Assembly: GCA_014871385.1 (NCBI GenBank)
Contig: CM026429.1
Coordinates: 7,846,642 to 7,910,641 of the forward strand
DNA: 64,000 nucleotides
Direction: 5' to 3'
Source: Ceratodon purpureus
Taxonomy: Eukaryota; Streptophyta; Bryopsida; Pseudoditrichales; Ditrichaceae
Part shown: one piece after another, positions 5,186 to 47,794 of the stretch
Position numbering within the stretch: position 1 is the first letter of the stretch
Layout: every line of letters starts with the position of its first letter
Made by a program: the position numbers and the translations under genes
The notes under the pieces: model-generated
Database searches by the model: none
The model's input: the letters and a program-made list of their open reading frames with translations, nothing else
Told to the model about the DNA's origin: nothing

Positions 5186-6841
5186 GGCAAGGAGAATTTC
5201 TAATCTATACTTCATATTTTTGCATTGTCTAGTAATACCAATAGAACATCACTTAAAAATTTCAGAAGAGAATGATATATAATGTTAGAATGACATGTAG
5301 CATGTTATATTGAAATAGGGAGTTCATTCAAAACATTTCTTAAAAATCACACTATTTAATCAGATGTAATATTCTACATTTGAATGCATAGTTGATTTGC
5401 ACAACATCAACTGAATACTTTTAAAATACACCATGCATCACACCTCAATACAACGTACAATCTTTCTTAAATGTACTAAATGATGTATAACCTTTCTTAG
5501 CCTTGATATAATGTACAATGTTAACTGTACTTTAAATACCGAATGAACACTAATCTTTCTTGAATATATTGAATGACAATTTCGAGAAACAGTGTTTTTC
5601 AAGAACACTATATATATTCCTTCTTCAAATTCAATGCAATATTCCACGATCTCAAAGAATGGTTCGTTAATTGACAATTGTTTGCTATTTTAGAAATTCA
5701 TAAACCCCATTGAAATTCATACACCCCATTGAAATTCATATCCCTTACAAAGTCAAAAACATCATTCTAAATATTGCATGATCTAAACTTCGTATTACAG
5801 TAGCACGTTCTCTGTACCCCCAACTATTATTTGCTCTAGTGAGGAAATGCTTTTGAAGATTCTTTTTTCAATAAACAATCTTCTTTCATTCCACTCGTTA
5901 GTTTGAATAGAATTACCTTTCATTTAATATAATCAATCAAGAATTTCCTTGGCCAGTTTTTTAATGGAAGTAACCCTTACTTGTATACAAGTTGATTCCA
6001 TGTTCCTTTTACTCTCACTATGCCATAACAAGGTTGCAAATTATCTTTCAGTTACAATTTCTGAAAATAATCGTTATTATTCAGGTACACATCTACAGTC
6101 TGTAGTGAACAACTCACAAACTGAAAATCCTTCTTCACCCTAGCTCTTTCCACCAAGTATGCGCCAGAATTTGTATTTTAAATAAAGCGCTTTCAATCTC
6201 ATGACATTGAAACGCATGGCAATTTTCATACCTACACAATTTTCGCTGCACCTTTTCAAAAGATGACAACCATTTACTAAAAATCAAATAGCATTAATTT
6301 CCCACACACAGCCGTCGCCGTCATCCACCTTCCCGGCATTGAATACGAAGATATTTCGTAATCACTTCGGTGGGCAGCCCGGAACTCAGTCCAAACTTTT
6401 GCAGTGGGCAGCCTCATTCGGACCCTAAAACCAGAGGTATATAAGTTTCGGGGCCTCACAATTCTGTCTTTTTTTTCTAGCGCTCATCATGATGCGTCGT
6501 GCGCTCTGAGGTTTCTCTTCTTCCGGTCTTGTCGCATTCTGAGGTCTGCTCAAATGTTGCCGACGTCACATGGCCTCTTCTCAGCTCTGAAAGGTGAGTT
6601 TTGTCAGAGACAGCTCGTCAGTGGCAGGCGTGTCAGTCAGTCAGTGGCAGGGTTCTGTGAGTCAGTCACCTCGGTATCTGTGCCAGAACTGACATGTCAG
6701 TTCCTCTGGCATCCGGGTTACGAACTTCAGTTCGAATCCTATTTCGTAGCTGAGTGCTGTTGAATGTAACTGTCATTGCAGGTTGCGAACTTCCGTTCGT
6801 TTATTGTCTAAGTCTGTCCATTCAAGTCCGAACTTTACTAG

Positions 6842-7873
6842 AGATACACTTCCAGAAATTGACTTGCTATCCATCTTAGTCCTCAAACTTTCTTGTACCT
6901 TGATGCTCCTACAAGGGCGGCTTAGGAGTGCATCACATTGCTTGGCTGCTCGTTCATGTCCTTCCCAACATAGGCATGTAATATAATGCAGCAAGGTCAC
7001 TGATTCTGTCATCTCCTTGAATGTATTACTCTACTATAAGACGTTGAAGTTCATGATTCGGTAGTTTAGTTTTGGTCTTACTCAGAATATGTTTTGTTCA
7101 AACAATCTAGAATAGACATTGCTGACGGCCACTCTAATATGTCTCCACAGCGGTAGGGTCATTCATTTCTATTCTTGGCCCCATTGGTTCCTAAACTAAA
7201 TTTCCAACCGTTGGAAATTATTAACTGTTTATATCACTTCCTTTCTCCTTTCAGGTTCACTTTCTCATCGATCGCGGAGAAGCAACTTACGAGCTGAAGT
7301 TCGTAACCATCACTCTTACAACGTGAAGATCAAGGATTGCAGGGTTGGAAGTGGTGATTCACAATTCATTCTGCGCAACCGATAGCAGAACACATCAAGT
7401 CCCATTAATTTTCATGGATATTGCGCAACTCCATCTGCAATACTGAGGTATTATTTTATCGATACTTCAACATTGCCTGTATATGTTTCCCTATTTCTTG
7501 AGGTGGTAAATGTTTTCTGAAATTGTCTCCGATTCATCAAGGTCCACATTACAGCTCCAAGACTTCTTTTTGCTTATCGTTAAAGACTTTGTCAAACATG
7601 GCCTTAAGAAACCACTGCCATTTGTGATCTCCTCTACGTGATATTCTCTCCCACAATAATCTTTAATTGTCTTGAGCATAATTGCTTAAGCAACCATCTT
7701 GCATACTCTGTCCAAGAATTGATACCAGCCATTCATGTCCCTTTTTGTGATGAGGTGCTCGTGCAATATGGTCCAAGTCACTAGTCCGAGTTACAAATTG
7801 ATTATTTGTCCTGAAAAGAACTAACTGATTTCAAATTGGTATTGTTGAGGAATGAGAGCCCAATCCCATATAA
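6842..7873. repeat. 1,032-bp tandem duplication, first copy
   Basis: Bases 6842-7873 are repeated immediately downstream at an offset of 1,032. I saw a single base difference (A near 7440, G near 8472) and no gap, so the duplication is young. The junction shows a short AGATA microhomology, fitting replication slippage or unequal exchange. It lies upstream of the DUF7869 gene. Short open frames inside appear in both copies and are not convincing genes. Collapse or artificial duplication in the assembly is an alternative. Confidence 0.95.
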
Positions 7874-8901
7874 AGATACACTTCCAGAAATTGACTTGCT
7901 ATCCATCTTAGTCCTCAAACTTTCTTGTACCTTGATGCTCCTACAAGGGCGGCTTAGGAGTGCATCACATTGCTTGGCTGCTCGTTCATGTCCTTCCCAA
8001 CATAGGCATGTAATATAATGCAGCAAGGTCACTGATTCTGTCATCTCCTTGAATGTATTACTCTACTATAAGACGTTGAAGTTCATGATTCGGTAGTTTA
8101 GTTTTGGTCTTACTCAGAATATGTTTTGTTCAAACAATCTAGAATAGACATTGCTGACGGCCACTCTAATATGTCTCCACAGCGGTAGGGTCATTCATTT
8201 CTATTCTTGGCCCCATTGGTTCCTAAACTAAATTTCCAACCGTTGGAAATTATTAACTGTTTATATCACTTCCTTTCTCCTTTCAGGTTCACTTTCTCAT
8301 CGATCGCGGAGAAGCAACTTACGAGCTGAAGTTCGTAACCATCACTCTTACAACGTGAAGATCAAGGATTGCAGGGTTGGAAGTGGTGATTCACAATTCA
8401 TTCTGCGCAACCGATAGCAGAACACATCAAGTCCCATTAATTTTCATGGATATTGCGCAACTCCATCTGCAGTACTGAGGTATTATTTTATCGATACTTC
8501 AACATTGCCTGTATATGTTTCCCTATTTCTTGAGGTGGTAAATGTTTTCTGAAATTGTCTCCGATTCATCAAGGTCCACATTACAGCTCCAAGACTTCTT
8601 TTTGCTTATCGTTAAAGACTTTGTCAAACATGGCCTTAAGAAACCACTGCCATTTGTGATCTCCTCTACGTGATATTCTCTCCCACAATAATCTTTAATT
8701 GTCTTGAGCATAATTGCTTAAGCAACCATCTTGCATACTCTGTCCAAGAATTGATACCAGCCATTCATGTCCCTTTTTGTGATGAGGTGCTCGTGCAATA
8801 TGGTCCAAGTCACTAGTCCGAGTTACAAATTGATTATTTGTCCTGAAAAGAACTAACTGATTTCAAATTGGTATTGTTGAGGAATGAGAGCCCAATCCCA
8901 T
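7874..8901. repeat. 1,032-bp tandem duplication, second copy
   Basis: Near-identical copy of 6842-7869, ending at about 8901 where the two sequences part. The DUF7869 reading frame starts 77 bp downstream, so this copy is the one next to the gene and may hold part of its promoter or leader. Confidence 0.95.
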
Positions 8902-8978: not shown

Positions 8979-11900
8979 ATGGCCTCACGTTTATTACAAG
9001 CAAGAAATATACATCATGGCTTCAATCATCCAATAATGGCTAGGCGTTCTTTACGAGCAAGAAATATACATCCTTGCTTCAATCATCCAGTAGCGGCTCC
9101 CTTGACAAGTTCCTCCTCTGATGAAGATGATGACTACACGCCAGATTCTGATGCAATACACATCAGTGATACAGACTCAACATCAAGTGGAGACGAAAGT
9201 AGTGGATGGGTATGTTTTCTCCAAGTTTCACGTTATGTTCCTTCTCTAGAGGTTATTATGTGTCATGTCTAGTGCTATGGAGGACTATTGCTTAATCTAT
9301 ATTCCTTGCAATGAATAAATGTTCTTCTGGACCAAAAACATAAACAATGAACGATACTACAGGTTGTTTTAATATTCCAAAATAAGCCTTGGTCGAGTTT
9401 TTTTAAAAACAATGATGTTTTAACAAGGACGGTTACGACGTTACAAGTATCATCACTACATCATTATGATTAACGTGAATCCATATAATTTAGCATTGGC
9501 GCTTTAGAAAGCATTCTTCCTTAGACTTAAAACAACCTCGAGGTGAACTTCCCCTTAGAAGACACGACTTACTTCATTCATGAGTGCTATTACTTTTTAT
9601 TGTGTTTCTGCACTTTAATAGGCTTCTTCTTCATAGCCAACATTCTATAAACCGTCGCTTTTCTTCTCTACATACTACTACTATACGTGTGGCATGCACA
9701 TCGCTGATTTGTGCCTCATTTCCATTGTTTTTGTCTTCATACCTCCCTTACTTTCCAAGTAAGAGTAGTCTCATTTGAGCAAAATAAGCTAATACCGTGT
9801 AGGAGTGGTATTTGTATGGTACTGCCTATCATTGTTTCCTACAAAGTAATAGAGCAGTAATGGATATCTCAGGATCATGGCATTGGTGCCACGTTACGAA
9901 CTTCAGTTCATTACTTCTCAATGTCTCTTCTGGGACGTTATTGTGTTCTCAATCATTACCACCTTCAACTTGAACAGAGATCGCAATGTGCAGGACACAC
10001 CATCTACCTCCGACGTCTCGGATAACGAGAGTCGTGACAAACACATAGACAATTCACCAATTCCTGCTTGCGAAGATATTGCAAGAGAAGACTGGAAAGG
10101 ACTAACTGTAGAAGCAAGGCATGAACACGGAACCAAGTTTGCTACTGCACTCGTGACAGCTACAAATTCAACGATGTCAGTGGATGGAGAGAACGACCTA
10201 GGGGATCACCAATTTGGTATTGTGGTTCTTGAAGTATTTGAAGGCGATTCTATCTTACGAGACCACTGTTTATCTTGGCCGGTGAACTTGCTTTTTTATA
10301 AGAATGTTAGTGTCTATGATCATCTCCGAAGGCACTCAACAATTATATTGGAGGACGAACTTAGAAGGGTAGATCGGAAAGGGAAGCGCACCTACGATAC
10401 CTCCAATAGACCACCCAAGGAGAAGAAAACTCAGAAATGGAGGATTAGCGATGATGAGATATCCAAACTGTATATGGCTGACTGTTGCCACCGTCATTGC
10501 ACCAGGGTATTTTCCCCAGAGACTGTTCGTTCATTTCGATATGGGATGTATCTACACAATCCAGAGGAAAGGCGTTTGAGAAACCTTGACGTCCACCGAA
10601 CAAGATTTCGCTCCTCGGATGGAAAAGAAGATTTGGTCATGCTTGAATTTAAAGAAATTTGTATCAAAGGGTGGAAGCTTATCCACGGTGTTCCTGACCG
10701 AACGTTTCGTCGCTACAACAAACAAGCTAAGGACGGAGAACAAACTCGACCTCATGGCAATCTTGGGAAGTCAAAGCCAAGACTGGCAACACTGCAAGCC
10801 ACAGAAACTTTACGTACAATTGTTGACGGGCTTGCTGATCAAATGCCGTATACATGCACACTTCCTTCTGGAGAACGAGTTCCGCAAAAGATTCTTCCAA
10901 GAGGAATTCAATGGAAACAATTTCTGCCTCAGATAAACAAGGTAGAATATTACTACTTCTACATCTAAGCATCCATTATGCTTTCCGTGCATTCCATGAT
11001 TTTCTAGAATTCATTGTAAAGTTGTAACTCATTACGTTCCATATTTTGTAACAGGTGAATGTTCAAGTTGGCTTGAAACCTATTTCCGTTGCTCTTCTAA
11101 GTAAGATCCGTGTGGGTAAATATGCGGACTACATGATCAAAAGAAGAGGGGACCTTTTCGCAAGGTGCTCAAAGTGTGACTTGTACACAACTCTTCGTAA
11201 TGCAGCACCTCGCGGATCGAAGGAGCAAAAACAGTGGGCCCTCAAATTCAACAAGCACACTAAAGCTCAGTGGGCAGCGCGAAATGTGTATTGGTCAGAT
11301 CGTCTTCATTCTATTAACCGGCCACTAGAGTTTGTATCTATTATCCATGACAAAATGGATCACTCTAAGACAGCACTTCCATGCCTGCGGAACCGGACAA
11401 AAGACCTCGATGGCCTTTCAAAATTGCCTATATCGGTGACTGGGATGTATGCCCATGGTCATGCTGATGCAAGGTATGCCCACTATACGCTAGACGTTTA
11501 TGCAAATGATAGCAATTTCACAATCGGTTCCATTGCCAAATTGCTGCGTGACTTAGAGGATCCTCCGAAAACATATACCAGAGCTCTTTTCAAGGAAAAT
11601 GCAAGCAATCCTTTATATGATGCTGTGCTCTATGGGAAAGAGATGTGTCTGCCGTCACTAGGAGAGCCAACAGACACTCCAAGTCCAAACCGAGACCTTC
11701 CTCCTGTGTTGCATGTCCAGCTTGATAATTGTTGGCGGGAGAATAAAAATAGATTCGCATTTTGTTTCTGGTCACTTCTGGTCGCAAAGAAGATTGTCCA
11801 AGAGGTGGTAGTCTCATTCATGATGGTTGGACATACACATGACGACATCGACGCTTCTTTTGGAAGATGGAGTATGGTTTTGAAAGAAAAAGACCATCCA

Positions 11901-13172
11901 ACGCTACCGATGCTCATGAAATCCTATATGGATCTAGACGAAGATGGTCCCATGATTCCACATCTAATTGAAGAGGTTCCGGACTTCAAAAAGTTCATTG
12001 CTCCTTACATTGCATCGAAAGGTAAGAAAAAACTGCATGGGCATAGCAAAGGAGCCCAATTTAGATTCTTCTTGCACGAAAATGAGTGGCCTTTGATGCA
12101 ATATAAGTTAGCTTGTACAGAGAAAGAATGGAAACCTATACACGCACCTGGTATCAAATTGTGGAAAGAAGACAATGAAGGGAAGCCAATCCTTCCTCCA
12201 GATGGCGCAGAACCAAGTGCGGTTAAACCGCATAAGCTCAAGGACAGTGATGATTTATTAAAGGGCATTGAAGGGTTCTTGGCTTATTACAACAAACTTC
12301 TGAAAGAAGAGGTTACGCCGGCATTCAAGGCACAACAACTGCATTATGTGGAATACTGGACTGGTGTACGAGATGCAATCAAATCAATGGGTCCTCAATC
12401 AACAGAGCTAGATACCGCCGGAACTCCTATAGAAAGAACTCCTGATGAGGATGCAGAAGGGAGTAACTCTGGACAAAGTGCAAACGAGGATGATGCACAT
12501 GATCGCGATATCGCCAATTCCTTGGAAACAGATGAGGTTCTCCTTCATCCAGAAGCATCAAATGTAGAGGATCTGCATGAAAATTACACATCAAATGAGA
12601 ATGTGTACTGCGACATTCCTTTGCGGTTTGGATTTTGGCCTAAGACAAGACTCCCAATCGATGCGAGTGTATCAAGGACAAATACTGAAATTCCTTTACC
12701 GCAAGCTCCATTTCAGGAAGGCGATGTTGATTTGGAAGAGCAGCCGTACATTGGTACAGTGGAGGGTAGACCCCCTCCTCCATTTACAGCTGCAAGGGAT
12801 ATTCGGAAGGGTTTTTTTGTATTTGTTAGACCAGGGGAAGGCTGTGAAGATCCAATCTGGTTAGGAAAAGTCATGGAGCATCCACAAATGAATGCATTGT
12901 TGCCAAATTATAAATCTCTCAAAGTACGATGGTGGGTCCCGAACAATGCAAACAATGCAGCGGATGATGCATACCGTGGATGGAATACGCTCCCCATGTT
13001 TCCATATAAACTGGACTTCGACGCAAAAACACAGGACAGGATTTCAACAGATAGCGTTCTTGCTTCTTGGAAACCAGATAAGGGACGGATTCAAATTGCC
13101 CCGACGATACAAATTCAATTTGCTGAGGACAACCTTCGCCGGATTATCGAGTTTGAGAACAGGTGCCGTTGA
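8979..13172 (+). CDS. DUF7869-type protein, probably transposon-related
   Basis: Three exons (8979-9209, 9994-10941, 11055-13172) with GT-AG borders, all phase 0, give 1,098 aa ending at a TGA. Residues 1-40 hold two tandem copies of an about 19-residue peptide (RARNIH-x2-FNHP), followed by an acidic Ser/Asp-rich stretch. The middle has a Cys/His cluster (CCHRHC) and KLIHGVPDRTFRRYNK, typical of the region before DUF7869. The conserved core carries VLHVQLDNCWRENKNRFAF and then VGHTHDDIDASFGRWS. The family is multi-copy in mosses and several animals and its function is unproven. The conserved Asp residues in LDN and HDDID resemble an RNase H-like/DDE nuclease core, which is my inference. The frame is intact, so the gene may be active or recently so. 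The first exon could extend upstream, since no clear promoter was identified. Confidence 0.8.
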
Positions 13173-31267: not shown

Positions 31268-33261
31268 TCAGAAAATTTTGCAACCACGTTCTGTCAAGGC
31301 ATGTCGAACCTCCTCCTTCAAAGTCAATTTGGTACACCTTGTAATTTCCAGTTGTGTTAGTTGAGTCAGCCCAAGAACAGAGTCGGGAAGACCCTCCAGC
31401 TTCTGGCATCCTCCCAAATTCAATTCTCGCAGTTGAGTCAGCAATCCAAGAGACTCCGGGAGACGCTCCAAGTTCTTGCAGTATCTCAAATTCAAAGTCC
31501 GCAGTTGAGACAGACGGCCCAGCGACGATGGGAGCTCCACCAATTCACCACATACGAGTAATAAGTCCCGTAACGACACTAGGTCACCAACATGCTCCGG
31601 CAATCTTTCGCACTTCGACCATGGAACATGGAGAATTTGTAACCTCACTAGATTCCTCAACGTTTCTGGAAGAGGATCCCTCCCTGACACATCCACATGG
31701 AGCACTCTCAACTGCGTCAGATTGCCCACACTCTCGGGAACAGATGCTCCAGTCATATGGAGCTCATGCAATTGCACCAAATTGCCAAGCGACTCGCTGA
31801 AAGCACTCGAAAGCTCCTTCGCCTCCCTAAACCAAACATCGCCAAACTCGAGATATTTGAGCCGAGGACACGGAGGGAGAGCAGTCTCGGGGATGATCGG
31901 AAGGACGAGACGTTCCAGGTGATCCGTGTGGAGACGCCCCTCCCTCACCATCTCTGCCACCTCTTCTTCCATTCTATCACATTCCCAGAGACTGAGGATT
32001 TGTAATTCATGATGAAGTTCCACGAGCTGCACCAAATTAGCCATTGACTCTGGAAGTTACTCTAAACTCCAACATCTATTGAGAACTAAAGCCTGGAGGT
32101 TCCTCAAATTCCCAATGGTACATGTTAAATTTCTTAGACTTCTGCAACCTGATAAATCAAGTTCTCGTAAAGAGGAAAGTTCACCAATTGAAGATGGGAC
32201 CTCCACAATATCCACACATCTTTTCATATGTAGGACACCTGAATTCTCAAACCTTCTCCCAATCCTTTTTAAATGGCTCTTTTTGATGTTTGTATCGTTA
32301 AGACAAAGCCACATCAAATTCCGAGGGTTGAACAAATTGAATACGAGGATCACCTCCTCCACTTCGTTGCCAAACAAATTTATCAATCGTAGATTTCGAC
32401 ATCTTTGAATGTCTTGGTTTTGAAATGTTTTGCTCACAACATGATGTGATCCATGTGATGAATGAAGATCAATGCCAACCATTCCATCCTTCTTCTCAAC
32501 AACCCATGATATGCCTTCCAATGTCCTCGAATCCTATAAAAAACACAATTCTCAAATTATTATTTAAAACAATGATTAAAATCCGTGATAAAATGAAATG
32601 AATATAGACATAATGCTACATCAAAAACTGAAGTATTTAACCCCTTGCTTAACACAAACAATTCATAATTTACCTCATTATCTTCAATAAGCCTCACAAT
32701 TTCTTTTCTCTCCCACATGTGTTTCATATGTTTCGATAAACCATTCTTGGAGAAGTCCTTCACAATCCAACGCCCCATATCTCAGAGTTGATCATGTATA
32801 AGAACAACTTTTTTATAGGACTTCACATATTTAACATATGGATCATAATGCTTCTTCAAATCCACCTTAAGAAGTGAACTGTTAATAAGATTTTGTACTC
32901 CAATACGACTACCAAAAATCCGTACAACTGTGTCTATGACCAAGTCTTTTACTTCACACAAAATTCAAGCAAAATCCAGAAATAAACATTTCTCTAAATC
33001 ACCCAAGTCATCATAGCTTATCCTCAACGTTGACCAAAGCTTCTCATCATCATTGGAGTATCCCTCCAAAGATATTGCTTCCTTCAACCTCCTCAATGCT
33101 TCTTTCCACACATCCAAACGCTCTTCTCCACAAAGATGGTTTCTTTTGCGTAAATGTTGCCCAATAACCTCTATACTAAGAGGCAAACCGCCACATGCAT
33201 GCACAATATTCACAGCTTCATCTTCAAATTTGTCTCTCTCTTCACTTCCAATTTCATGCAC
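31268..33261 (-). pseudogene. 3' part of the hydrolase-NB-ARC-LRR receptor gene (distal NB-ARC and LRR)
   Basis: On the minus strand the sequence reads from the GLPL region (CGGLPLSIEVIGQHL) through the ARC2/MHD-like segment (LIHDQL). An intron follows (donor near 32672, acceptor near 32534), and then about 17 leucine-rich repeats of the LxxLxxLxLxxCxxLxxLPxx type (such as NLERLPESLGLLTQLRELNL) ending at 31268. In-frame stops lie at 32965-32967 and 32782-32784 (both TGA, also present in the other repeat copy) and at 32057-32059 (TAA, between LRRs). The 5' half of the same gene lies 12.1 kb away beyond the insert. LRRs in this family sense ligands; with these stops the receptor cannot be made in full. 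Confidence 0.85.
32504..33261. repeat. 758-bp direct repeat, left copy (flank of the 12.1-kb insert)
   Basis: Identical to 45407-46164 at a constant offset of 12,903. I count four base differences and no gaps. It consists of receptor-gene sequence (the start of the LRR exon, the intron and the distal NB-ARC exon). The left edge runs on into LRR sequence. The right edge stops abruptly at foreign DNA. Confidence 0.97.
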
Positions 33262-33339
33262 CTAGGTCATTTTTTTCCACTCCTGTCCAATATGACTCAG
33301 AAACAGGTCATATTGGACGTCATTTTTTCACGAATTCCT

Positions 33340-34335
33340 ACTAGTGATGCTCACCGGGGCGACACATACTTTGAGATTATCTGCAGCAGACTAGAAGCCG
33401 AGATTGCGGAAGGCGAGGGGGAATGCCAGTCGGCCGTGGCAGATCATCGCGTTGCATTCGCAAGGTTACAGATTTCTGAGGGAGGCTGCAAAGCCGCCGC
33501 TGAGCGATATGGATAGATAGAAGCTTGAGATCGAACTGAAGTTTATGAAGGAAAAGCTGATATCTTGTGAGACGAAACTCGCAAAGTGGCTTGATATAAA
33601 GCCGGTTGTTGAAGGTTCTGCCGACGCAACTTTCCTCAGATTCTACGAGGATGAAGTCCACTGCGAGGAGCAGAAGATCTTGCAGTTGGGGGAGGAGGCG
33701 CAAGGTATGAAGGAGCGACTAAGTGAATCTGGCCTGGAGCTAGCGGAAGCAATCGAGGAGAAGAAAGGCTTGTTATCTGCAAAGCAATTTCTAAAGGAGA
33801 AGCTGAAGGTCCGAAAGGATAATCTCCGGAAGCTACAGCTATGGTCATTTTCTTCATTGTTCCGCGATCCTAGCCCACGAATCGCAGCACCAACACAGGT
33901 CATTGACGCAATTACCTTGACGGTTCACTGTTGTTCCCTATGCAAGCAAGGATTTCCGGGGATGGATTTGGTGATAGCGTCTTGCGCATGCCCGTACCAT
34001 CCTTGGTGCGTGGCTGTTCAGACTTCCCTAACTGATACCTGTGCCAGATGCGAGGAGCAGTTCTCGGAGAAGTGGCTGGACAGCTTTGGCTATTTCAAGT
34101 GCAAAGGTATGTCAAAATCACAGACTCTTTGCTTCGTGATGGGAGTTCAGCACTATGTGTTCATTTCTAGTTAACGAACCTGTATGATAGTTTTGCAGGG
34201 CCAGCAAATGCGGGGAGTGCGTCGGATACTGTAGAAGGTAGGAAGAAACGCGGCCACTTAAATTCAGACATTGGTGGCTGGAACTATACGCGAAAGGATA
34301 AATCGTCACCAACGTGCCGAAGGAAATCGAAGTAG
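33340..34335 (+). pseudogene. Coiled-coil + RING-like zinc-finger protein, degraded N-terminal part
   Basis: An open frame from 33545 to an intron donor near 34108 encodes a charged heptad-rich coiled coil (KEKLISCETKLAKW, LAEAIEEKKGLLSAKQFLKE). It is followed by a Cys/His cluster, CSLCKQGFPGMDLVIASCAC then PYHPWC and CARCEEQF, ending with WLDSFGYFKC. The spacing resembles a RING finger. A second short exon probably follows at about 34199-34335. Similar coiled coil lies upstream (33340-33516) in another frame, so the N-terminal half looks broken. From memory, proteins of this build are multi-copy in mosses and other seedless plants; whether they belong to a mobile element is not known to me. 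Confidence 0.5.
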
Positions 34336-35253
34336 CGCCGTCATGCTTAAAATTGTTGGAGAGAAGGCGCGCATATGGAAGTGACAGAGTGGACTGCGCT
34401 GTGAGTTTGAGGTTATTTGGAAATTCTCCTAGTAGCGACTTGGACGATGGTTTGCCTTTTTTTGACTCGGATTTAGATGCCAGGAAGATTATTGGTATAA
34501 ACGGTAACGGAAATGGAGTTTCAGAACTTGGCACGTTATGATAGTAAGTTCCCCTGAAAAACTCAATTTTGGAAGCTAAAGATGAGAGAACTAGACTCTT
34601 GATTCGCAAATTATCTCAGGTGTCGTTTAGAAAATCGAGATTTGGGAAAAATCTCGGCTACCTTACAATTTCAAACTTACCTTGCATTTCAAAGATATGG
34701 TGATTTTTATCGGCTCAAAAGATATATCAGTATAATTCTGTTGGTTGTTCTCGCTTTATATATCTGCCTTCCTGAGATTTGTTGATGCACATCTCTTATA
34801 TACATTTTTAGCTCTGTCTCAGTTGTTTTTGAGCATTTCTTCGCGACTTCGCTTGCATTTTCATCCTTTGTTTGCTCCCAAAGAGTTGTTTTCTGCCATT
34901 TCTTCGCATGGAGGCGAGTTCAGAGAAGTTGCATTGAATTCTAGCTTGCGAGGTCAAAAGATAATTCCCTAAATTTTTCTGAAATAGGTTCTATTTTAAC
35001 GTCATATTTGAACCATGAATTTTATCCATGGTTTTATCCATGTGGAGTCCTTGGTTGTGTGTACTTTACTGATGATTCAATCCCTCCAAACCTTTAGAAA
35101 TTTAGTATCATGAATTATTAAACTGGTATCGTAACTTGGTTAAGGATTTCTGTTTGAGTAGTCAAGTGTATTGTATGGGCTTGTTGTCCTTTCATTTTTT
35201 TCTATCCATTTTTACGACCCTCGATCTTCGTGACAAGTTTACTGATCCCTTCT
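34336..35253. other. Noncoding DNA inside the insert
   Basis: Follows the RING-like remnant. AT-rich and T-rich, with short frames only and no recognisable feature. Confidence 0.5.
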
Positions 35254-36235
35254 GGCGCCAGCGCCTCTTGCTGACAAATGTTTATATACCCTGAGTTTTA
35301 GACTTTTGCCTTAGAGAACCAAATTTGCTAATTCTAATACGTTATTTCGCTCATTCATTTGATTCTTAGGGATTTGGTTTGTTCAAGCGTTGATGTAGAT
35401 CTTGTAGCTATTTTTTTTTTAGTTTAATTTCGGAATGTGTTTGCATCTCAAGTGCATACATCATTTTTACATTACTTTCTGTTTGTTTATTATTATGCAA
35501 GATTTGACATAGGGATGAACTGACTTTGATTATCTGTCATGTGGATGGAGAAGAATCATATAGACTTTCTTTGCTTGCCATGTGCTTTCTTTTTTAATTT
35601 TTTTTTTTCCGGGGAACAAATGGAGCCTTTTTTCCATTGAAAAGCGGACCGTTAACACCAATGTGAACCAAGACAACCCGAAGAGAGCCAGCCGGCTAAG
35701 AACCAAAGAACCAGAACCTACGGACCCGATCTAAAAAATTGCTAGAGAGTCAAGCCACCTAAATATGACATGTGGTTTTGAATATATATATAACAGATTG
35801 CAACCAAGCTGAAATCGATCTCCTAAGGGCGCCGGCGCCATTTGTAAAACGCTGTTGTGATTTTTCTTTCTTTACTGAATCGGAGTTTCTGCAGATTTAT
35901 AATGGTTTCATAAATAAGAAAATCATGTATAACGATTACATGGAGGTGGATTATTGAGAGGTTCATTGTTCTAGAGTTTATATCATACTTCTGCATCCCA
36001 GGAACTGAAGATGGCGCCGGCGCCAAGTTTTTCAGCTTCTAGAATTTAGGATGATAATTTCAGATTTACGAAATGTTAATCCCGTGAGGTAGAATCTGAA
36101 ACTTAGTGAGACGAAATGGCTGTTGTTTTCTCCTCAGTTCGCTTTTTTTTTGTAGTTCTGGACTCATTGTCATCAGAGTGGAAACCATTTATACTCTGGT
36201 TGCAGATATGGCGCTGGCGCCATATGGTTGGCGCC
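35254..36235. repeat. Cluster of GGCGCC-N0/1-GGCGCC-type palindromes in AT-rich DNA
   Basis: Twelve-base GC palindromes stand out against AT-rich surroundings: GGCGCCAGCGCC at 35254-35265, GGCGCCGGCGCC at 35828-35839 and 36013-36024, and GGCGCTGGCGCC at 36210-36221 with another GGCGCC at 36230-36235. A further GGCGCCGGCC lies at 38960-38969. The flanks of the last copies are loosely repeated too (AGGTTCATYGTT downstream of two of them). All of these sites are within the 12.1-kb insert. Confidence 0.75.
35588..35765 (-). mobile_element. 5'-truncated LINE-type 3' end
   Basis: Read on the minus strand, a short GC-balanced segment ends in GGCTCCATTTGTTCCCCGG followed by a long A run (the T tract at 35590-35608 on the plus strand). 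This is the build of a plant non-LTR retrotransposon 3' untranslated tail. A CATGTG word on each side (near 35579 and 35768) may be part of a target-site duplication. No coding part remains. Confidence 0.4.
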
Positions 36236-39200
36236 GTCTTGATTCATTATAAGAAGGTTCATCGTTCGAAATCGTGGATGTGATGCACTTGTTTTGATTT
36301 TTTGAGAATTCAATACCCATACAATCTGCTCATTTGTTTGTACGTTCATTTTCAAATACTACGTATTTTTTATATATTATTGTATTTTTATAAATACGTG
36401 TATTCATATGTATTCATCCATTTTGGATGAAGTACTCGTACATATTGTCAACGGCTACTGCTGGGCGTATTTCCATGTATTTGTAATGTATCAGTTCTGT
36501 TTCTGACATTAGTTAGTTGGTGAACGATGATAAGTTTTTCATCTCTGACGACATTTGCATCCCTGACAGTCATGCTAGTCATACAGTCTGCCTGGTCTAT
36601 TTTGCTACAGATTCGGCCTATACACCCACCCACGCACACCAGACCATGCACTCTTAAACTCTGTCCTCTCATTCACATGTACCTGGCCCCAAAAGTTATA
36701 TTGCCAAAAACAAGGGGCAGCTTGCCCTTCACAGGTTAACACCTTCTACACTTCACACCCATGCATTCTAAAATCTAAACATTTCATAGATTTTTGATAC
36801 CTATACCTATCTTAGACGTCTGAAAAATATACATCTCCTTGATGGTTTAGACCACACGGTTTGAAGGGTGATTGCAAGAAAGGGTTGTCTTTTTTGGTGT
36901 AACATTGGAAGTGACTTCTGTACCATCAATCATAACTTTTGGAGTTTGAAGGCAATTTACTTGATATTTTTATTGAAGATGACCAATTTGATAGTCATGA
37001 GATTCTTTTTTTTTCAAAATTATCCAAAAAATATTTTCTATTTAAATTTCAGTTTAGCTAATTTGTTATACTTTGCATTTTAGGGTTCTTTAGTATTGTG
37101 GAGTATTCAAAATTAATTATATAGATTTGAAATTTGGGTGGATTATTTCCACATTAAAGAGGCATTTATCCACCAAAATAAGCTTAAAAAAACATTATTT
37201 TATGTCCTCTACATTCATGCACATAGGGATCCCTTGTACACATAGTTCTGAACTTTGAAAATGGTTTCAAGATCATTCTTTTGGTGAAATCTTATCACCA
37301 TCAACTATTTGCAAAGTGCCAATTCTTAGCTTTAAGAAGAAATCCCTATTTTTTACAAATTAAAATGTGAAAATACCTATTTTCATGAGATTTTGCACTT
37401 TTATAGTTCTCCTATTTAAAGAAATTTTCTTTGCTTTTCCTTCTTAGAATACCTTTTTCTTAAAGGTGTATACATTAAGCATTTTTTTTTTGGAGTTTTT
37501 AAAAATTGTTTTTCTAATTATAAAGTACTCTCAAAGAAAAATGGGTACTATGCAAAACGAGACATAAAACGTGAGGCCTTTCTTGCAACCACCCTGAAAT
37601 CTATACCTCTTAGATACCAATCCTAAAGAATTGAAATTTGTATTTGTCCTAGATGTATAAAATCTATACATCTCCTAAATATCATTTCTAGAGTTCAAAT
37701 TTCAAAATCTGAAAATAAAATATGGAGTTTTGTTTGTCAAACGAAATTCACCATTGAATGTAATCAATGTACATGAAAGGTGTATTCTCCTACAATCTCA
37801 ATCTTCCTTAATTTCAAGTTTTTTGGCTATTTCATGCTAGATTCTGTTATTTATGTTCCAAGGGCTTGGTGCAGGGCCCATTATTTTGGTGCAAAATGAC
37901 AACAAATTGCCAAAACACACACACACTATCACCATGGTTGGCCAGGGAGGATTGACCCCTTTATTGCCTCAGAAGCTAGAAATTGTCCCCTATTTGGGGC
38001 CAAGTAAATTTTGAATTTCTCACCTTCCTAATTTGGGGTCTCTAATTGCAAATATGAATTATTCAAAATTTGGAAAAATAAATTCATATTTATGAGATAA
38101 ACAAAAAAAATTCAATATTTTGTCCAAAGGTAAGAAATGGGGGGTCAATAGCCAAACTACACTAAATAGGGTTATCAAGAGGATCATACTATTTAATCAA
38201 AATTTCACACTATATAAATGTCTACCTTTTATGTACATCAATAGTTGTTGATGTGTCCGGGGGCTGTACATCATGTTCTAAACATTTATGGTTATTCATG
38301 ATAAGTCCCTTTAATTGTTTGGTCCCCTTAACACCCCTATTCATTGTAGTTTTCTCTCTAGCTCAGCACACACGGTTGGTAATTTGGAATCCCTACACCT
38401 GATAGATGCATCAATTAATCATTAGTTTATCACATATGCTGAATATGTATCCATGAATCAAAGAGACATAATTTAGTTCATGTGTAGAACTAGCTAAGAA
38501 TTAAGTAATTAAGTAATGTACCGAAGTGCTAAAATGTCATCACAACAAGAAGAATATGTAAGATAGGCACCCAAAAAATGGCACTTGGCCTTAAACCGCC
38601 ATCTTCATATTGTGTACATCCCCAAACCAATTATGTACATGTGTGGAAGAAATGCTTTTAGAAACAAACTTTGACCCTCCATAACTTTTGCATATTGTAT
38701 CCAAATGACACGTTCTTGGGTGCATTATTAGAACCTTCTTTCGTTTGCCAGCAAGGCAATATGAAAATTTGAACATGCTAATAATAATAACTACACACAG
38801 TACCAATTGGTGGTGCTCTTGGAGATACCCACCTTACGTCGTCTTCAGTGCAATCCAATTGAATTCAATTGAGAGCAAGTAATTAGTAGCTAGTTCAAGG
38901 ATTATTTAAAATAGAGTAATTAACCAAAATAATATATATGATATTGTATAGTCAATTAGGGCGCCGGCCTGTTTTGTGGATTGGTATCCCAATTCATTCA
39001 TTCTATGGTCGCTTATAGGAGAGGGCTCTAAAACCAACCAAGCATTTTCAACCATCTAGTAGGGGCTCTGAAATGGACATGTGAATTGTGGAAAATGGAA
39101 ATTTTAATTACAATGGAGCTGGATGAGATTTGTTTTAACTTCTTCAATGGATGGTTGAAGAATCACATGGGGTTCATTCCTAACTAAGTGGCTAGGTGTC

Positions 39201-39830
39201 TACTAATTTAATTCAAAATTAGAATCTATTGTTCAACTATCTTCTTACAAGCATGGAGAAATCTGAAACAATGATTAAATCAAGCATTCATTTTAGATCT
39301 AGAAAGGGATGTTTTTAGAGACCATTTCAATTGCTTTATACATGTTGCAATGCTTGTTTTTGATGAAGGACTAATTTTTTTTTCAAACTATGCATGGATA
39401 GGTTTCTAAGGGCCTATGATCACAAATAGGGACCTATAATAGATTGTGTTAAAAAATTCACGGGCTTTGATTCGTGCCGTTTACACCTACGGTGTGAAAG
39501 TTATGGATTTTGAGCTATTTTTGATATTAGAAAATTACTTTTACTTTTACTTTTCTTTTGGCTGTGGCAACGGCACAGGGGCACACTAGAGCTAATGGGA
39601 TTTGGATTGAAAAGAATCAAACTAAGGGTTTTACATTTCATCCTTTCTTCTAAGGTACAAAGGGGCATTTGATTTTATGTTTCCACAAGAAAGTAAAAAA
39701 AAAGAAAAAGAAGAGTAATGCAACCTACTGTGTGAGTGATGGACGGCTTGGATCTCTTCACTTGATCTGACGGTTGTAATTACGGATGGCTTGGATTGAG
39801 TCGGGGGATCCTACGGCTATGGGCGATTTA
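36236..39830. other. AT-rich DNA inside the insert, no recognisable genes
   Basis: About 3.6 kb of AT-rich sequence with only short frames and a short CA run near 37,917. I see no transposase, terminal repeat or RNA gene here. Confidence 0.55.
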
Positions 39831-39860
39831 GGGTTTGCGGACACCTATGTTCTTCTATCC

Positions 39861-40095
39861 CTCTTCTGCCATCTCTTTCGATCACTCATTCGCCTCCTCT
39901 CTTGAGAACTGTGTGAGCGGGGTGCTGTGCATTAGTGGCGCCGAGCTTCTGTGTCTCTTCTGCCTTCTCTTTCGATCACTCATTCGCCTCTCTCGAGAGC
40001 TGTGTGTGCGAGAGCTGTGTGTGCTCCGCTCGCTTCTGCACTTGGCGCCGCTCGCTGCCTGCTCTGCATCGCCCTCGCCGTCTCTCCACCGGTAA
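39861..40095 (+). promoter_or_regulatory. Leader of the CR-type gene with a duplicated segment
   Basis: A C/T-rich leader in which the segment starting CTCTTCTGCC at 39861 recurs at 39955 (offset 94), each copy followed by TCTCTTTCGATCACTCATTC and then GAGAACTGTGTG or GAGAGCTGTGTG. It ends with a GTAAGT-like donor near 40093, so it is probably a 5' untranslated exon. A GGCGCC lies in each half (39937, 40044). The coding start is at 40680. Confidence 0.5.
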
Positions 40096-40679
40096 GTTTC
40101 TTTCCTTTTCTTTTTTCTTGCACGTCTGCTGGTTGTATGGTTTTCGTGGTACGCCCCCCGTCCCCTGGAGTTTGTCGCGTTCTCTTTTGCTCGATTTGGT
40201 GCACTTGGTAGAATTGGCTACTCTTGCTTGACCTGTAAAGCATGTTTTCTGCGATAACTTTCTTGTGCGAGGGTTTACGTCAGGGTTTCTGTCACGCTTG
40301 GTCAAATTTGTCCAGCTTCGCCAGAAGGAAGGAGTCTTCCTTTAGTTACTCTTGTGGTATTTTGTTCGTAATCCAGATCGTTGTCAATACCTTGCAGTTC
40401 ATTATCAAAACGTTGCAGGTTTGTAATTCGATCAGAAAGTATGGACTGGACGCAAAGATTGAAGTCACTTGTAGTAGACGACAAGCAGCGGGGGAGGATC
40501 AGGCTGAAGTTGATAGGTTTTTGATAAGTTCATAGGTTTTTGCAGGCGCTGTGTGAGTGTTGCTTGCTTGGAAGTTCTTGCTGATAAGCTCACAAAACGT
40601 TTTGGTGTCTTCCCTGCAGGCTCTCAGTAGACTCGATAAGTAGGGCTTCTCTTCTTCTTTTCGTTGCAAAGTTTTTGTG

Positions 40680-43383
40680 ATGGGCGACGATTCACGCGAT
40701 CGTCTTCGGGGATTCTTGAAGAGCAGATGTCCTGATGTGGTTATCGAAGATGATGATATCAAGCAGTTGGTGGCCCAGGGCTTCAATGAATTTGCAATTG
40801 AAGGTGCTAGCAAAGACGATTTGATCAAAGTTCTTCCTGGGCGATTGGGTGTCGTGGTAGAGCTTGTTAAGACATTTGGAGAGCCCCAGCTTCCTGCAGG
40901 TATGTCATGAAGGGTTCACTGTTTTTGTGAGTTGATATTTCGCTGAGGTTGTTGCACTGCTTCATTGGATAGGGTAGCCCCCCTCTTGTACTTCTTGGAG
41001 TGGTTTGTCCCTTACGTTATGCAGATTCTTGAAACTTGACAAAATCTGACATATTTGCAGGGAAAGAGAGATCTCCGAAGAGATCGAAAACCTCTGGAAG
41101 TGGGTTTTCAGGTAGAGCTGCTCTGTTACCTAGCCTTCCCTTCCGTGTTCCCCTTTTCTTTGCATTTTCTTTGGTCATAGGCTTTGGTGGTGTGTCTTTT
41201 GTATTGTTCAATCATTTGCAAGATAGGATGCTCTTATTTTTCTTCAGATACTGAAAGAGTGGGTTTTACTTACAGAATCGGTGGATAAGGTTGTGAATGA
41301 ATGGAAATCGGATTATTCTGAGTTTTTGAGGAAGGCCATACACGAGAGGTGCGAATTGTCTACAGCGAACGGTGTGCCATTGGACCACCGTGGTCGTCCA
41401 AGTATTTTGTACGATCAATTAACTGCTGGTTGGACTAAAGACGTTACTGCGTTGTGGGAACGAGCGGAGAAACCCTCGAATGATCTTGTGCCAGTTATTG
41501 GAGTGAGTGGGAGTGGGAAAACTCGCTTTCTTTACGAGCTGCTTGCAGAGAAATGGGGGTTTTTTTGGACAGCTAGGACCAAAGGAAACGGTGGGTCAGC
41601 GGATATCGGCTTTATAACTGAATACGAGACAGTTAAGGATAAGGCAGAGAATCATAGCAGTGTGCTGAAAATTACGAGGTGTGCCGTTCTTGCAAGGTTG
41701 TTAATCTTGAGTATTTTTCTCAAAGGAATCCCTGATATGACGCCTCAGCAATGGCTCATGCTCCAGGTGCAATTCCGTGCTTTCGGTTCTGGAGATGAAA
41801 GAACTGATGATGTATATCTTGCGCTTACTGCTGGACTTATGCGTATTGTCCGGGAAGGTACTGTCCGGGAAGGTTCAGATGGGCTAAATTATATGATCAG
41901 TCGACTGTGGAGGGAATTACAGACGAAGCTTGATTGCAAGTTCGTTGTAGTTTTGGATGAAGCGCAGTCATTGGGTTCTATAGGTGAAGAATGTTATAAG
42001 TCCCCCACGTCGGGAAGTCTAAGGTCGATTTTTTCGCCGTTGGTGAAAGCCCTACAGAGTCCATCTACGGATCAGGCAGGTGGGCAGGTATTTGTTGCTG
42101 GTACAGGTGTCACCTTTTTGAAGCCAGAAGAGGACCTTGTTTCGTTGGTTTCAAAAGAATCCGTCGACGGGCAGATCCGATTTGCTTCTGCTCCATTTTC
42201 TTCATGGAATGATTCGGCTCAGGTTCTGGAATTCTGCGAGCGCTACCTGAAGCTAGAGGATGGGAAGGAAAGCGACAATGCCTGTTATCTGCTGAGAAAG
42301 TTCAGAGGCCGTCGAAGGTGTTTGGTAAGTTGTGTCGAGCGGCTTCTTGAGAAGAATAAAGGAGTATGGTCAGAAGAGGTAGTAGACCAGTATTTCCAGG
42401 AGATTACCAGCAGTAGCAGCAGCAGCAAGAAGGACATCACGTCAATCTATTATGCTGTGGAGGCTTTGTGTAAATCAAAAGGCCTTTTTCAGCTGAATGA
42501 GGTACAGTATAATGCTGATGCGTTGGTGCAAAGACTAGGACTCTACCTAGCCTTTGAACCGGAGGGAGAATATATCGTTTCAACGGAGGCAGATGAGACA
42601 TTGCTCAAGGTTGGCCTTGGACAGCTAAAACATTCATCAGGTTTCCAGTGCACCTTTTCTATATACGAACCGACAGTCCATTGGAGCATCTTGAACTATT
42701 TGAGCCGCAGCAAAACACTAGAGACTCTATTGAGAGAGCAAATGGTTGGTTGCACATATGATCCTAGTGCGTTGGGTAGGCTATGGGAGAAGCTTTTCAC
42801 GATGCATGTGGCCAGTCTGTTCGACGGCACAAAGTTCTTGGCCGACATGTGCTGTTTCAAGGGTGCAAATCTGGCAACCCTGCATCAGAATTTCGCAACT
42901 CACATGCCAATGATTACCGGTAAATTGGATGGAGTGTGGAGGGAGTCGTACAAGAAAGAGGACAAGACTGTAAGTGCATTTCTTGATGCCAGAGAGGAAT
43001 ATCGTGAGCGATGCCTCATTTTTAACGACGGATCCGGACCTGATGTTCTATTCGTTGTGAGACTTGGGGATTTGAAAATCCCTGTCCTCTGTCAACTGAA
43101 GCTGCGAGAGCGGATAAACTGGGGTCAAGCGCAGGCAACTACGAATCCGGAAAGCATGTACAAGGCCCGGAAATATGACCGGTTCAGACAGAGGGTGGTT
43201 GATGCATGCAAAGATGGTTACATCAGCTTGGTAGTTGGCTATCCTACAAAAGTTAAAGCCGAGCCTGCAACGCAGAAAGATTGTTTATCCGGCTTTATAG
43301 GTCAGAGGGAAGCGGAGAGTTTGTTTGGCTCTGAGCTGTGTACTTTCTTAAGGCGCCTCAGAGAATCACGGAAAAGTTCGTGA
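40680..43383 (+). CDS. Crinkler-type (CR) protein: header, P-loop NTPase and REase-fold nuclease
   Basis: Three exons (40680-40899, 41061-41111, 41276-43383), with both junctions in phase 1, give an intact 792-aa protein. Residues 1-73 form a small helical, SAM-like header. The tiny second exon encodes a basic stretch with SPKRSK, a likely nuclear signal. A P-loop NTPase follows, with Walker A GVSGSGKTR (about residue 165) and Walker B VVVLDEAQ (about 318). The C-terminus shows a restriction-endonuclease-like core, GPDVLFVV then IPVLCQLKLRE (about 675-700), giving the D...QxK signature. This NTPase + nuclease pairing defines the CR (Crinkler-RHS-type) family, known from oomycete and other eukaryotic effectors and proposed to stem from transposons. 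A Ser run (SSSSS) comes from an AGC repeat near 42,410. Its place inside a recent insert supports mobility, which is my inference. Confidence 0.8.
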
Positions 43384-43770
43384 TTTGCTGTCACACCTTT
43401 CCAGTACAATAAATGAGCTATAAAGGTTACAAGTTTTTACTTGTGATAAAAAAAATTAACCAGCTATGTTTACAATGATTCCCCTCTTTAAATAGTATCA
43501 ATAGTTGTGTTCATAGTAGAAATCTGCATCACAAACGAATGCGAGGGTCGTGAAACCTCTTTACATGACAATCATAACATTGAATCCGCCCAAAGTATGA
43601 TTCTTTCCTTACGTTTTTGTCACAATGCTTTCCAGCAGTAATATGAGTCACGATGTGCTGAAATGTAGCATTTCTCTGGATGCGCGACTGTGGAAGCGAT
43701 TCTGGTATCTTCACTCACACTTGACCTTTGATGAGCAGCGAATGGAAATGGCATTCATCATGAGACGAGC
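43384..43770. other. Spacer between the CR gene and the aldehyde oxidase fragment
   Basis: 3' flank of the CR gene. The left edge of the aldehyde oxidase homology falls at about 43,770. No feature is recognised. Confidence 0.5.
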
Positions 43771-45406
43771 GAGGTGCAACCCCGGTTCAAATTCTCGGAC
43801 AGTGCCGATGCGAAGGATAGGGAGAAGGTGTGGATTGATCCAGAGTCCTTGACGGAGGTACTGAAGGCTCTTAGAACATATCAAGGAACAGAAGTGAAGC
43901 TTGTGGTTGGCAACACTGCGTCTGGTTACTACAAAGACATTAAACCCAATGTCTACATCGACGTTAGCAAGGTATGATTGCTTGGCTTTACTTACCAGTC
44001 TCTATGTTTCGTATATTCCGAATGCAGTTCAAGGGCATAACCATGTTCTCAAATTGAAGAATACTGACAGCAGTGTCCATTTCTCACTTGCTTCTTGGTT
44101 GTGCATCAGGTTGATGAGTTACTCGCACTAAGGAAGACGGCGGACGGTATTGAAGTGGGTGCATCGGTGACCATCTCAAACTTCATAGACTTTTTAGAAA
44201 GTGTGCATGGGCAGGAGTTGAAGGCTACAACAAATGGCGTAGCAGGCAAAAACAGTGCAACTTCAGTTCCCGACGTTTTAGCTGCTCATCTAAAAAAGAT
44301 TGCAAGCAACCATGTGCGAAACTGGGGCAGTGTAGGAGGCAATTTGATGATGGCTAAGCTTTACAATTTTGAGTCCGACATTGCAACTATATTGCTTGGA
44401 GTGGGAGCACAGGTGAAAGTTGTTTCATCAGGCAGTGGAGGTCCTGTTGCTAAAAGTACGAGTCTTGAAGACTTCATCTGGAATAGTGCTCTGGAGAACG
44501 GCGAGGTACTGCAATCAATATGGATACCCCTAGACGGAGCTTCTTCACAAGATGGTTCTCGAGTGCATTTCAAGACATATAGGGCAGCGTCTCGGCCATT
44601 GGGATTTGCATTGGCCTACGTTAATGCGGCATTCTTTGCACGAGCTTCAGAAACGGTCCATGGGGGTGTGAAATTGGACGATGTCAGATTAGCATTGGGA
44701 GCATTTGGGACGGAACATGCTATTCGGGCTCGACGTGTTGAGAATCACTTGAATGGAAAATCATTGACGTGGGATGTGATACTGGAAGCCGTTCGTTTGC
44801 TTAGAAGTGATGTTGTACCTGTGAAGGGTACAAGGAAAGCTGAGTACCGCGTGAGACGGAAGCGGAGAGTTTCTTGTTTCAGTTTCTTGCTCCTCTTCTG
44901 AAGGATGACGATTATGTAAGCAAATACAACGTGTTGTTAAGCTCTGGGAAACAGATGATTACAATGACAGACGAATCCCAGTGGGACAACCATCACCCAA
45001 AATGGCGTCTGAGCTTCAAGCTTCAGGTATGATCTACTGCACATGATCCTTCAAATGTTCACATGAGATATGGAACACTGCTTTCATGATTATGTTATTT
45101 GGTGCTCAAGGGGTTATGATTGTTCACAATCAGTAATAGCATATGTGGGTTTTCATTGACAGGCGAGGCCGTGTATGTGGATGATATCCCGGCACCTGCG
45201 GATTGCCTTCATGCGGCATTTGTGTTAAGTGAGAAAGCTTTGGCCAAAATACAAAATGTTGACGTGCAACCAGCTTTACAAACTCCGGGAGCAGTGGCAT
45301 ACATTTCTGCTGCCGACCTTCCACCAAATGGACAGAATGTTGGAGTAAGCATGGGGGCTCTCTCCAAGCAGGGTCTGTTCGCAACTGACCTCGTGGAGTG
45401 CGTCGG
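43771..45406 (+). pseudogene. Aldehyde oxidase/xanthine dehydrogenase gene fragment, cut at both ends
   Basis: Exons at about 43771-43972, 44110-45027 and 45164-45406, with introns kept. They encode the FAD-binding domain (KLVVGNTASGYYK, HVRNWGSVGGNLMMAK), the CO-dehydrogenase C-terminal-like domain (RLALGAFGTEHAIRARRVE) and only the beginning of the molybdenum-cofactor domain (GEAVYVDDIPAPADCLHAAF). The N-terminal 2Fe-2S domains and nearly all of the Mo domain are missing; the family is normally about 1,350 aa. A one-base frame change occurs near 44,850 between AEYRV and ESFLFQFLAPLL. The right end breaks mid-exon into receptor DNA. Because introns are kept, the fragment was captured as DNA and not through mRNA. 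Confidence 0.85.
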
Positions 45407-46164
45407 CCATGATATGCCTTCCAATGTCCTCGAATCCTATAAAAAACACAATTCTCAAATTATTATTTAAAACAATGATTAAAATCCGTGATAAAATGAA
45501 ATGAATATAGACATAATGCTACATCAAAAACTGAAGTATTTAACCCCTTGCTTAACACAAACAATTCATAATTTACCTCATTATCTTCAATAAGCCTCAC
45601 AATTTCTTTTCTCTCCCACATGTGTTTCATATGTTTCGATAAACCATTCTTGGAGAAGTCCTTCACAGTCCAACGCCCCATATCTCAGAGTTGATCATGT
45701 ATAAGAACAACTTTTTTATAGGACTTCACATATTTAACATATGGATCATAATGCTTCTTCAAATCCACCTTAAGAAGTGAACTGTTAACAAGATTTTGTA
45801 CTCCAATACGACTACCAAAAATCCGTACAACTGTGTCTATGACCAGGTCTTTTACTTCACACAAAATTCAAGCAAAATCCAGAAATAAACATTTCTCTAA
45901 ATCACCCAAGTCATCATAGCTTATCCTCAACGTTGACCAAAGCTTCTCATCATCATTGGAGTATCCCTCCAAAGATATTGCTTCCTTCAACCTCCTCAAT
46001 GCTTCTTTCCACACATCCAAACGCTCTTCTCCACAAAGATGGTTTCTTTTGCGTAAATGTTGCCCAATAACCTCTATACTTAGAGGCAAACCGCCACATG
46101 CATGCACAATATTCACAGCTTCATCTTCAAATTTGTCTCTCTCTTCACTTCCAATTTCATGCAC
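45407..46164. repeat. 758-bp direct repeat, right copy (flank of the 12.1-kb insert)
   Basis: Matches 32504-33261 with four differences. Its right edge runs on without a break into the rest of the NB-ARC domain. Its left edge stops at the aldehyde oxidase fragment. It shares both TGA stops with the left copy (45868-45870 and 45685-45687). Confidence 0.97.
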
Positions 46165-47794
46165 ATCATTGAATAAATGGAAAGCATAATGCCTAAATAG
46201 CTCCATGGACTGCTCCTTGTCCAGCACATCCACCTCAATCTTGTCCAATTCCAACATATAATCTGATAAGATTGCCTTATTGCGGCAAGTGACAATGAGC
46301 CTGCTTCCACCGGATCCATGCTGAAATGCTTCCACCTGCAAGGCCTTCAGATTCTTTTCTGACCCAACGTCATCGATCACAACCAAAACCTTCTTGGTCT
46401 GTATGCATAGTCTGATCTTCTGTAGATATTCCTTCGGATCTTCATTCTCATTCCAGCTTTCATCACACAGCCCTCGAAGAAGTTGCTTCTGGAAAATAAC
46501 TAAATTGCTGTGAGATTTCACGTTCTCCAGATAACAACACTTGTCATAATTCCTCCTCTCTGTATTGAACAAGGCTTTGCTCAGAGTGGTCTTGCCCACA
46601 CCCCCCATTCCCACCAGTCCAACAATAGGCCTTTCCTTCAACTTCTCTCGCAGCTCTACCAGCTTGGCATCAACACCCACAACAAGACTCGGAAGCCCCG
46701 AAATCTTGTCTTGGTTGGATCGATACTCGGCCACAACCTCCTCAATACATCCTGTCAAGTGTAAGAAGCTCGTGCTTCTGACAGTCTCAGGCTTACAGAC
46801 ATTGAAGTGATCGGCTGCTACATGAATGACGCGATCGAACCCAGCACATCTGACGGAATGCTCCTCGACAATCATCGAGCTGGAGAACCATTTCTGCACC
46901 CAGTCACACACAGTATGTAAGTATTCAAAACAATAAATACATCAAGAGTTCTGAAATTCAGATCAGTGCTCATCCAGCTCAGAATATCCCCATTCAGCCC
47001 AACTTACTGAGGATGTTTCATGAGCCGCTGCGACAACTCGAAACTTGCACTTGTTGTTGTACACTTTGCGCTGGATGGCTTCAAATGTGCTGTTCAGTCG
47101 TGCGAGATCAGGATTCATCTTCACCAAGTCTGATCCTCCATGTGGTGTCGCATAGAAGACAAATGCCTTAATATTCTTCAGCAATTTCTCAATCCTCTTG
47201 TCTCCCTTGAATCGTTCATGACCCAAAACCACAATTTCCTTAGCAATTAGACCTCCAAGACAGTGGCATACGAATACCACTGGACAACCATGTTGGCCGA
47301 TATCAACGCCACTAAACACCATCTCCTGAACCAAAGTCTCTCCAAATGGGTGTAAATCCATGGCCCCCAACGAGTACGATCTCAAAGCACGGATGGCATC
47401 GTATGAAATGGAGAGAATCCTCGCCTTTGGGAAAACAGCAGCTAACCACGTCTGTGGTCAACAGTTATCCTGGGACCCAACTCTGACCAGCCATGTTGTC
47501 CAATATGCATTCTCGTATGCATCTTTGGAGTCACCCGACTGGAGCCCATGAATAAAGACCACCTCCACTTCCGGCTGTCCTTCCGGTTCGTGAAGGGAGT
47601 ACACCCCATCACACAACTGTAGCAACACAAATTATGCTCAGCCATGTGAAAAAAACCTCTGCAGAAACTGTCATATTCTAAAACGTATGACAAGTATCAA
47701 AGGAGTCAAGTATTAGTACCTGAATTACACGACTAGGCGCAGATGGACCTGCTGAATCATCACGACTTCTTTTAGTTCCACGAGTCTGATTCAT
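45407..47794 (-). pseudogene. 5' part of the alpha/beta-hydrolase + NB-ARC receptor gene
   Basis: Minus-strand exons: 47721-47794 (MNQTRGTKRSRDDSAGPSAP), 47008-47616 (alpha/beta-hydrolase), 45577-46893 (NB-ARC) and the stub 45407-45436. The hydrolase begins VEVVFIHGLQSGDS and has the nucleophile elbow VVFVCHCLGGLIAKE, where the usual GxSxG serine is Cys (TGT). NB-ARC motifs are all present: P-loop GMGGVGKTTLSKALF, kinase-2 KVLVVIDDVGS, RNBS-B GSRLIVTCRN and GLPL CGGLPLSIEV. Hydrolase-NB-ARC-LRR receptors are a class of NLR immune receptors described from bryophytes. In-frame TGA codons lie at 47458-47460 (in the hydrolase, where relatives read Trp), 45868-45870 and 45685-45687. The LRR half is displaced to 31.3-32.5 kb by the insert. 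Whether truncated products are made is unknown. Confidence 0.88.

Follow-up and report, generated by a model that had tools for sequence, protein, structure and literature searches.

A moss receptor pseudogene split by a 12.1-kb insert between near-identical 758-bp direct repeats

We find that a hydrolase-NB-ARC-LRR receptor gene in the moss Ceratodon purpureus is interrupted by 12.1 kb of other DNA, and that the same 758 bp of receptor sequence stands on both sides of this insert. The locus lies in a window of 64,000 nucleotides of contig CM026429.1, which is the whole stretch of DNA analyzed here. We consider the sequence pattern to be real and correctly read, and it is most likely a repair scar. 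Among mechanisms, error-prone DNA repair that captured or copied the 12.1 kb seems to explain the layout best, a reading that we adopt tentatively and with slightly less than even confidence. The main doubt on the locus is assembly error, which is weighed below together with integration of a circular DNA and truncation of tandem paralogues.

Base-by-base comparison at an offset of 12,903 aligns the two copies (Table 1) with four substitutions and no indel, and the similarity ends at once beyond the 758 positions, leaving abrupt inner edges. The differences (32765 A/G, 32886 T/C, 32943 A/G, and 33178 A/T) amount to 0.53% of the 758 positions; three of the four are transitions, and two are silent while the other two change an amino acid. 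The same 758-bp piece was recovered, at 99.47% identity, when the window was searched against itself with blastn. Such a match, 758 bp at 99.5% identity, is beyond chance. A repeat scan found six families of direct repeats in the window, and the only other long one lies at 6.8 to 8.9 kb. These comparisons confirm what the original prediction had said of the repeat (its 758 bp, offset, four differences, and lack of gaps) and of the 12,145 bp between the copies. The inner repeat ends, which it had placed at 33262 and 45406, were each off by one and lie at 33261 and 45407.

The outer flanks of both copies extend one hydrolase-NB-ARC-LRR gene, and the inner flanks do not. Together with the Pfam matches, this continuity bears out the minus-strand order of hydrolase, NB-ARC, and LRR parts that had been proposed for the receptor. 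Both copies also contain a 140-bp GT-AG intron between the NBS and LRR parts, which directly follows a complete codon. Because this intron is present in both, DNA was copied and not mRNA. A retrocopy origin is rejected, since introns are retained in the repeat and in the oxidase relic of the insert.

Table 1. Positions, in window coordinates, of the repeat copies, the receptor parts, and the features of the insert.
Feature	Position	Strand	Remarks
LRR part	31271..32533	-	Two reading-frame pieces split by an in-frame TAA; PF23598
Left 758-bp copy	32504..33261	-	Covers the NB-ARC exon's 3' part, the 140-bp intron, and 30 bp at the start of the following exon
Continuation of left copy	below 32504	-	Runs on into the LRR part
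Insert, 12,145 bp	33262..45406		No inverted or direct repeats at its ends
Perfect 12-bp inverted repeat, 10-bp loop	33285..33318		23 bp inside the left insert edge
Coiled-coil, cysteine-rich ORF (RING-like by eye)	33292..34174	+	No Pfam match
ATPase-like gene (predicted)	40644..43383	+	Small upstream ORF, joined by eye, plus intact 718-codon ORF
Aldehyde oxidase/xanthine dehydrogenase relic	43735..45406	+	FAD domain to hammerhead domain, cut at the junction
Right 758-bp copy	45407..46164	-	In frame with the NB-ARC part above 46164
In-frame TGA, right copy	45685..45687	-	Identical TGA at 32782-32784 in the left copy
In-frame TGA, right copy	45868..45870	-	Identical TGA at 32965-32967 in the left copy
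NB-ARC exon	45871..46941	-	PF00931, 2.2e-35
Alpha/beta-hydrolase-like N-terminal part	46966..47457	-	PF05057, 2.3e-4; 21.2 bits, just above the cut-off of 20.3

The receptor appears to have been a pseudogene already before the insertion event, a point that the original prediction had missed. Two in-frame stops are common to both copies and are thus older than the duplication, unless there was later conversion between the copies. The NB-ARC exon has its best match in Roq1 (phmmer, 7.7e-33) among the 15 solved sequences matched. The LRR profile PF23598 scores 4.7e-20 for 31271-32056 and, below the cut-off, 2.4e-6 for 32060-32533, and the hydrolase-like segment matches a serine esterase family (PF05057). 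In the liverwort receptors of the HNL class, as described in PMC3352924, the order is hydrolase-NBS-LRR, and a phase-0 intron between the NBS and LRR parts is common to the HNL, PNL, and TNL classes. Sphagnum, a moss, likewise has receptors with a hydrolase part, according to PMC11218826. The gene studied here is like the HNL receptors of PMC3352924 in its domain order, with the hydrolase assigned by a match just over the cut-off, and in its phase-0 NBS/LRR intron. It differs from them in carrying stops, as a pseudogene, in being divided into two parts, and in its weak hydrolase match.

The insert holds three coding features. The coiled-coil ORF begins 30 bp in from the left end of the insert and has a frame jump near 33516. 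In the predicted ATPase-like gene, the 718-codon ORF occupies 41227-43383, and its matches to AAA families in Pfam are all below the cut-off. No solved relative of this ORF was found at E values up to 1, none was confirmed in prokaryote genomes, and neither for it nor for the NB-ARC exon was a relative confirmed in viral contigs. The oxidase relic matches FAD_binding_5 (PF00941, 9.6e-21), CO_deh_flav_C (PF03450, 3e-14), and the hammerhead domain (PF01315, 1.4e-20), and stops at residue 663 of a 1,332-residue xanthine dehydrogenase chain. It keeps two GT-AG introns and has apparent frame breaks near 44850 and 44970. Its first piece, 43735-43974, is weakly supported (9.6e-5, below the family cut-off, with no significant solved relative). 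For the rest of the oxidase gene, a search with protein motifs in six frames of the whole window, which is a weak method, recognized no iron-sulphur or molybdenum part; its one match, at 61814 on the plus strand, does not resemble such a part.

Between these features, the middle ~5 kb of the insert is mostly low in GC and without long ORFs. Here, 30-nt inverted repeats that are 80% complementary and 671 bp apart (36865-37595) may mark a small non-autonomous element. A GGCGCCGGCGCC-like palindrome occurs three times within 35826-36227, at spacings of 185 and 197 bp, with a weaker fourth occurrence at 38958. Outside the insert, Pfam was searched with 10 of the 107 ORFs of at least 85 amino acids, plus four receptor pieces, and an ORF at 11052-13169 carries DUF7869 (6e-44), a family of unknown function. 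Scans of the window for Rfam families (at gathering scores) and for tRNAs found none.

LTR retrotransposons are recognized by terminal repeats with TG..CA ends and by a short target duplication. The 758-bp copies begin with CCATG and finish with ATGCAC, and their outer flanks are host gene. From the insert, 55 of the 119 overlapping ORFs of at least 45 amino acids (submitted as 5, 10, and 40 pieces) were searched against Pfam; these 55 gave no match to any transposon domain, including gag-pol domains between the repeats. A few matches at E values of 0.025 to 0.072 are all below the cut-off and look like chance. The other 64 ORFs lie below 34171 (7), in 34171-40644 (17), in 40644-43383 (25), and beyond (15). 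When the 100-bp insert ends were compared as terminal inverted repeats, they scored 14 against a shuffle mean of 13.3, a score reached by 191 of 500 shuffles; as direct repeats they did not exceed shuffles either, 419 of 500 reaching their score. On these terminal features, both an LTR retrotransposon and a TIR element are rejected.

Helitrons begin with TC, end with CTRR and a hairpin, insert between A and T, and cause no target duplication. The left insert edge recalls a Helitron 3' end, since it has CTAG on the minus strand with a hairpin 19 bp before it. This 12-bp hairpin is the only one in the window with a loop of 3 to 20 (mean of 0.15 in 20 shuffles of 500-bp blocks), and at 33266-33328 it has GTCATTTTTT on either side. 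A Helitron is rejected because of a 5' end that reads CC, an insertion site of T/G, and the duplication of 758 bp. The tests of ends, terminal repeats, and domains (the last on 55 of 119 ORFs) agree with the earlier statement that this is not a usual transposon.

We therefore favor repair, because the copies, the insert ends, and the tested ORFs carry no transposon hallmarks, because introns kept in the repeat and in the relic indicate copying at the DNA level, and because the window holds a second duplication of like anatomy with a tiny filler. A break or a fork collapse would have occurred in the already dead receptor gene. Error-prone repair would then have captured or copied 12.1 kb of unrelated DNA, presumably from elsewhere in the genome, and the 758 bp between the break ends would have been duplicated. 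In a patch-repair variant, the strands might have been nicked ~758 bp apart, with fill-in synthesis at both break ends and joining to the captured DNA. In a fork variant, a restarting fork might have switched to a distant template and returned 758 bp behind its departure point. One event would be enough for the resulting A-B-E-B-C layout, as it takes two non-homologous joins and a local duplication. At either join, the adjacent base is not that of the native receptor; this mismatch follows from the way in which the repeat was bounded, and hence is no evidence on microhomology.

Published rearrangements resemble the locus in part. In the cis rDup cases of PMC10482687, which come from human tumors lacking BRCA1, a distant segment (E) is placed between duplicated local segments (B), and the source attributes this to replication restart. 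The same A-B-E-B-C layout is present here, with foreign DNA enclosed by a directly repeated local segment and a probable distant origin of E. The sizes are the other way round, which counts against the repair reading: E of 50 bp to 1 kb and B of 1 to 300 kb in the cases given there, as against a B of 0.76 kb and an E of 12.1 kb. In rice, perfect tandem duplications between varieties, the longest of 4.9 kb, are presented under a patch-repair heading in PMC7971508, which cites Vaughn and Bennetzen 2014. According to the same source, tandem duplications of any kind make up a share of events that has dropped to 5% by 200 bp and is steady to 15 kb. These duplications and ours are long, direct, of unique sequence, and without a transposon; those described for rice are adjacent, whereas here 12.1 kb stands between the copies. 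Fill-in of overhangs at breaks yields small tandem duplications (PMC8355091). Beside the small duplications of that account, 758 bp would be a long fill-in, which counts against the repair reading. Our search of the literature on staggered breaks with filler DNA found no match.

The original prediction was that a circle of 12,903 bp, with 758 bp of receptor sequence on it, integrated ends-in; to this may be added a tandem array of such units serving as repair template. This would yield exactly the observed layout, so the compatibility stands; the mechanism, however, is not singled out, since repair, template switching, and misassembly give the same layout. Cattle color-sidedness reportedly provides a precedent for circular intermediates, which counts for a circle here. 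So does an Arabidopsis mutant in which a 701-bp piece of a transposon and 708 bp of a gene were joined in one chimeric circle (PMC10462705). A circle would need the same two non-homologous joins as repair, plus circularization and a crossover, and the window holds no sign of one. The efficient gene targeting of mosses, which had been invoked in its support, does not by itself favor circles, since the moss transformants of PMC5675891 had targeted junctions in all but one of eight cases with linear plasmid and in none of eight with circular plasmid. We thus regard ends-in integration as improbable. Its specific form, in which a chimeric extrachromosomal circle (758 bp of the receptor pseudogene and 12.1 kb with the intact ATPase-like gene) entered the source locus of its fragment through a single homologous crossover, we regard as distinctly improbable, and for the suggested homing of a circle to the locus of origin of its cargo we find no evidence here.

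The copies could also be two truncated tandem paralogues, the remnants of a larger receptor duplication whose middle was removed by later deletions and which also acquired other DNA. Tandem and proximal duplication drive NLR copy number in cacao (PMC12405883), which lends this origin some plausibility. It would, however, need several events within 0.5% divergence, and the insert has no receptor remnant beyond the repeat (blastn of the window against itself to 1e-3; tblastn of ORFs of at least 50 amino acids to 1e-6). We consider it very doubtful.

Repair, our preferred reading, must above all be weighed against an assembly error. Two receptor contig ends that overlap by 758 bp could have been left unmerged, with an unrelated 12.1-kb contig set between them without Ns. 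False duplications parted by gaps or by wrong gap filling are documented (PMC9516828), and at its right edge the insert breaks off within a domain of the oxidase relic, as might happen at a contig end. The second duplication bears on the same question. It comprises 6842-7869 and 7874-8901 (copies of 1,028 bp that differ once internally and are separated by ATAA) or, by blastn, 6839-7869 and 7871-8901 (1,031 bp each, differing at two positions and 1 bp apart). It is recent, and its anatomy is like that of the insert locus, with a tiny filler of 1 to 4 bp. It shows either that this kind of repair happens often here or that overlaps went unmerged in the assembly, and we weigh it both ways: two recent direct duplications in 64 kb seem dense for real events and could equally point to an assembly fault, whereas a filler of up to 4 bp may be present instead of a bare join. 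Against an assembly error, the window contains no N, the two copies differ by four substitutions, of which three are transitions, and by no indel, and the 718-codon open frame of the insert speaks against gap filling with raw reads. All of these points would also be compatible with a misplaced good contig. We judge an assembly error to be somewhat unlikely.

What the locus means depends on which of these readings holds. Should it be an assembly error, it would be a warning against reading disruptions of receptor genes from an assembly alone. Should a circle be shown, it would be a case of natural gene targeting in a plant nuclear genome. If the pattern is real, it offers a clear natural case, in a plant, of a large insert with a duplication of nearly a kilobase on its two sides, and would be useful for learning how often such repair reshapes receptor loci.
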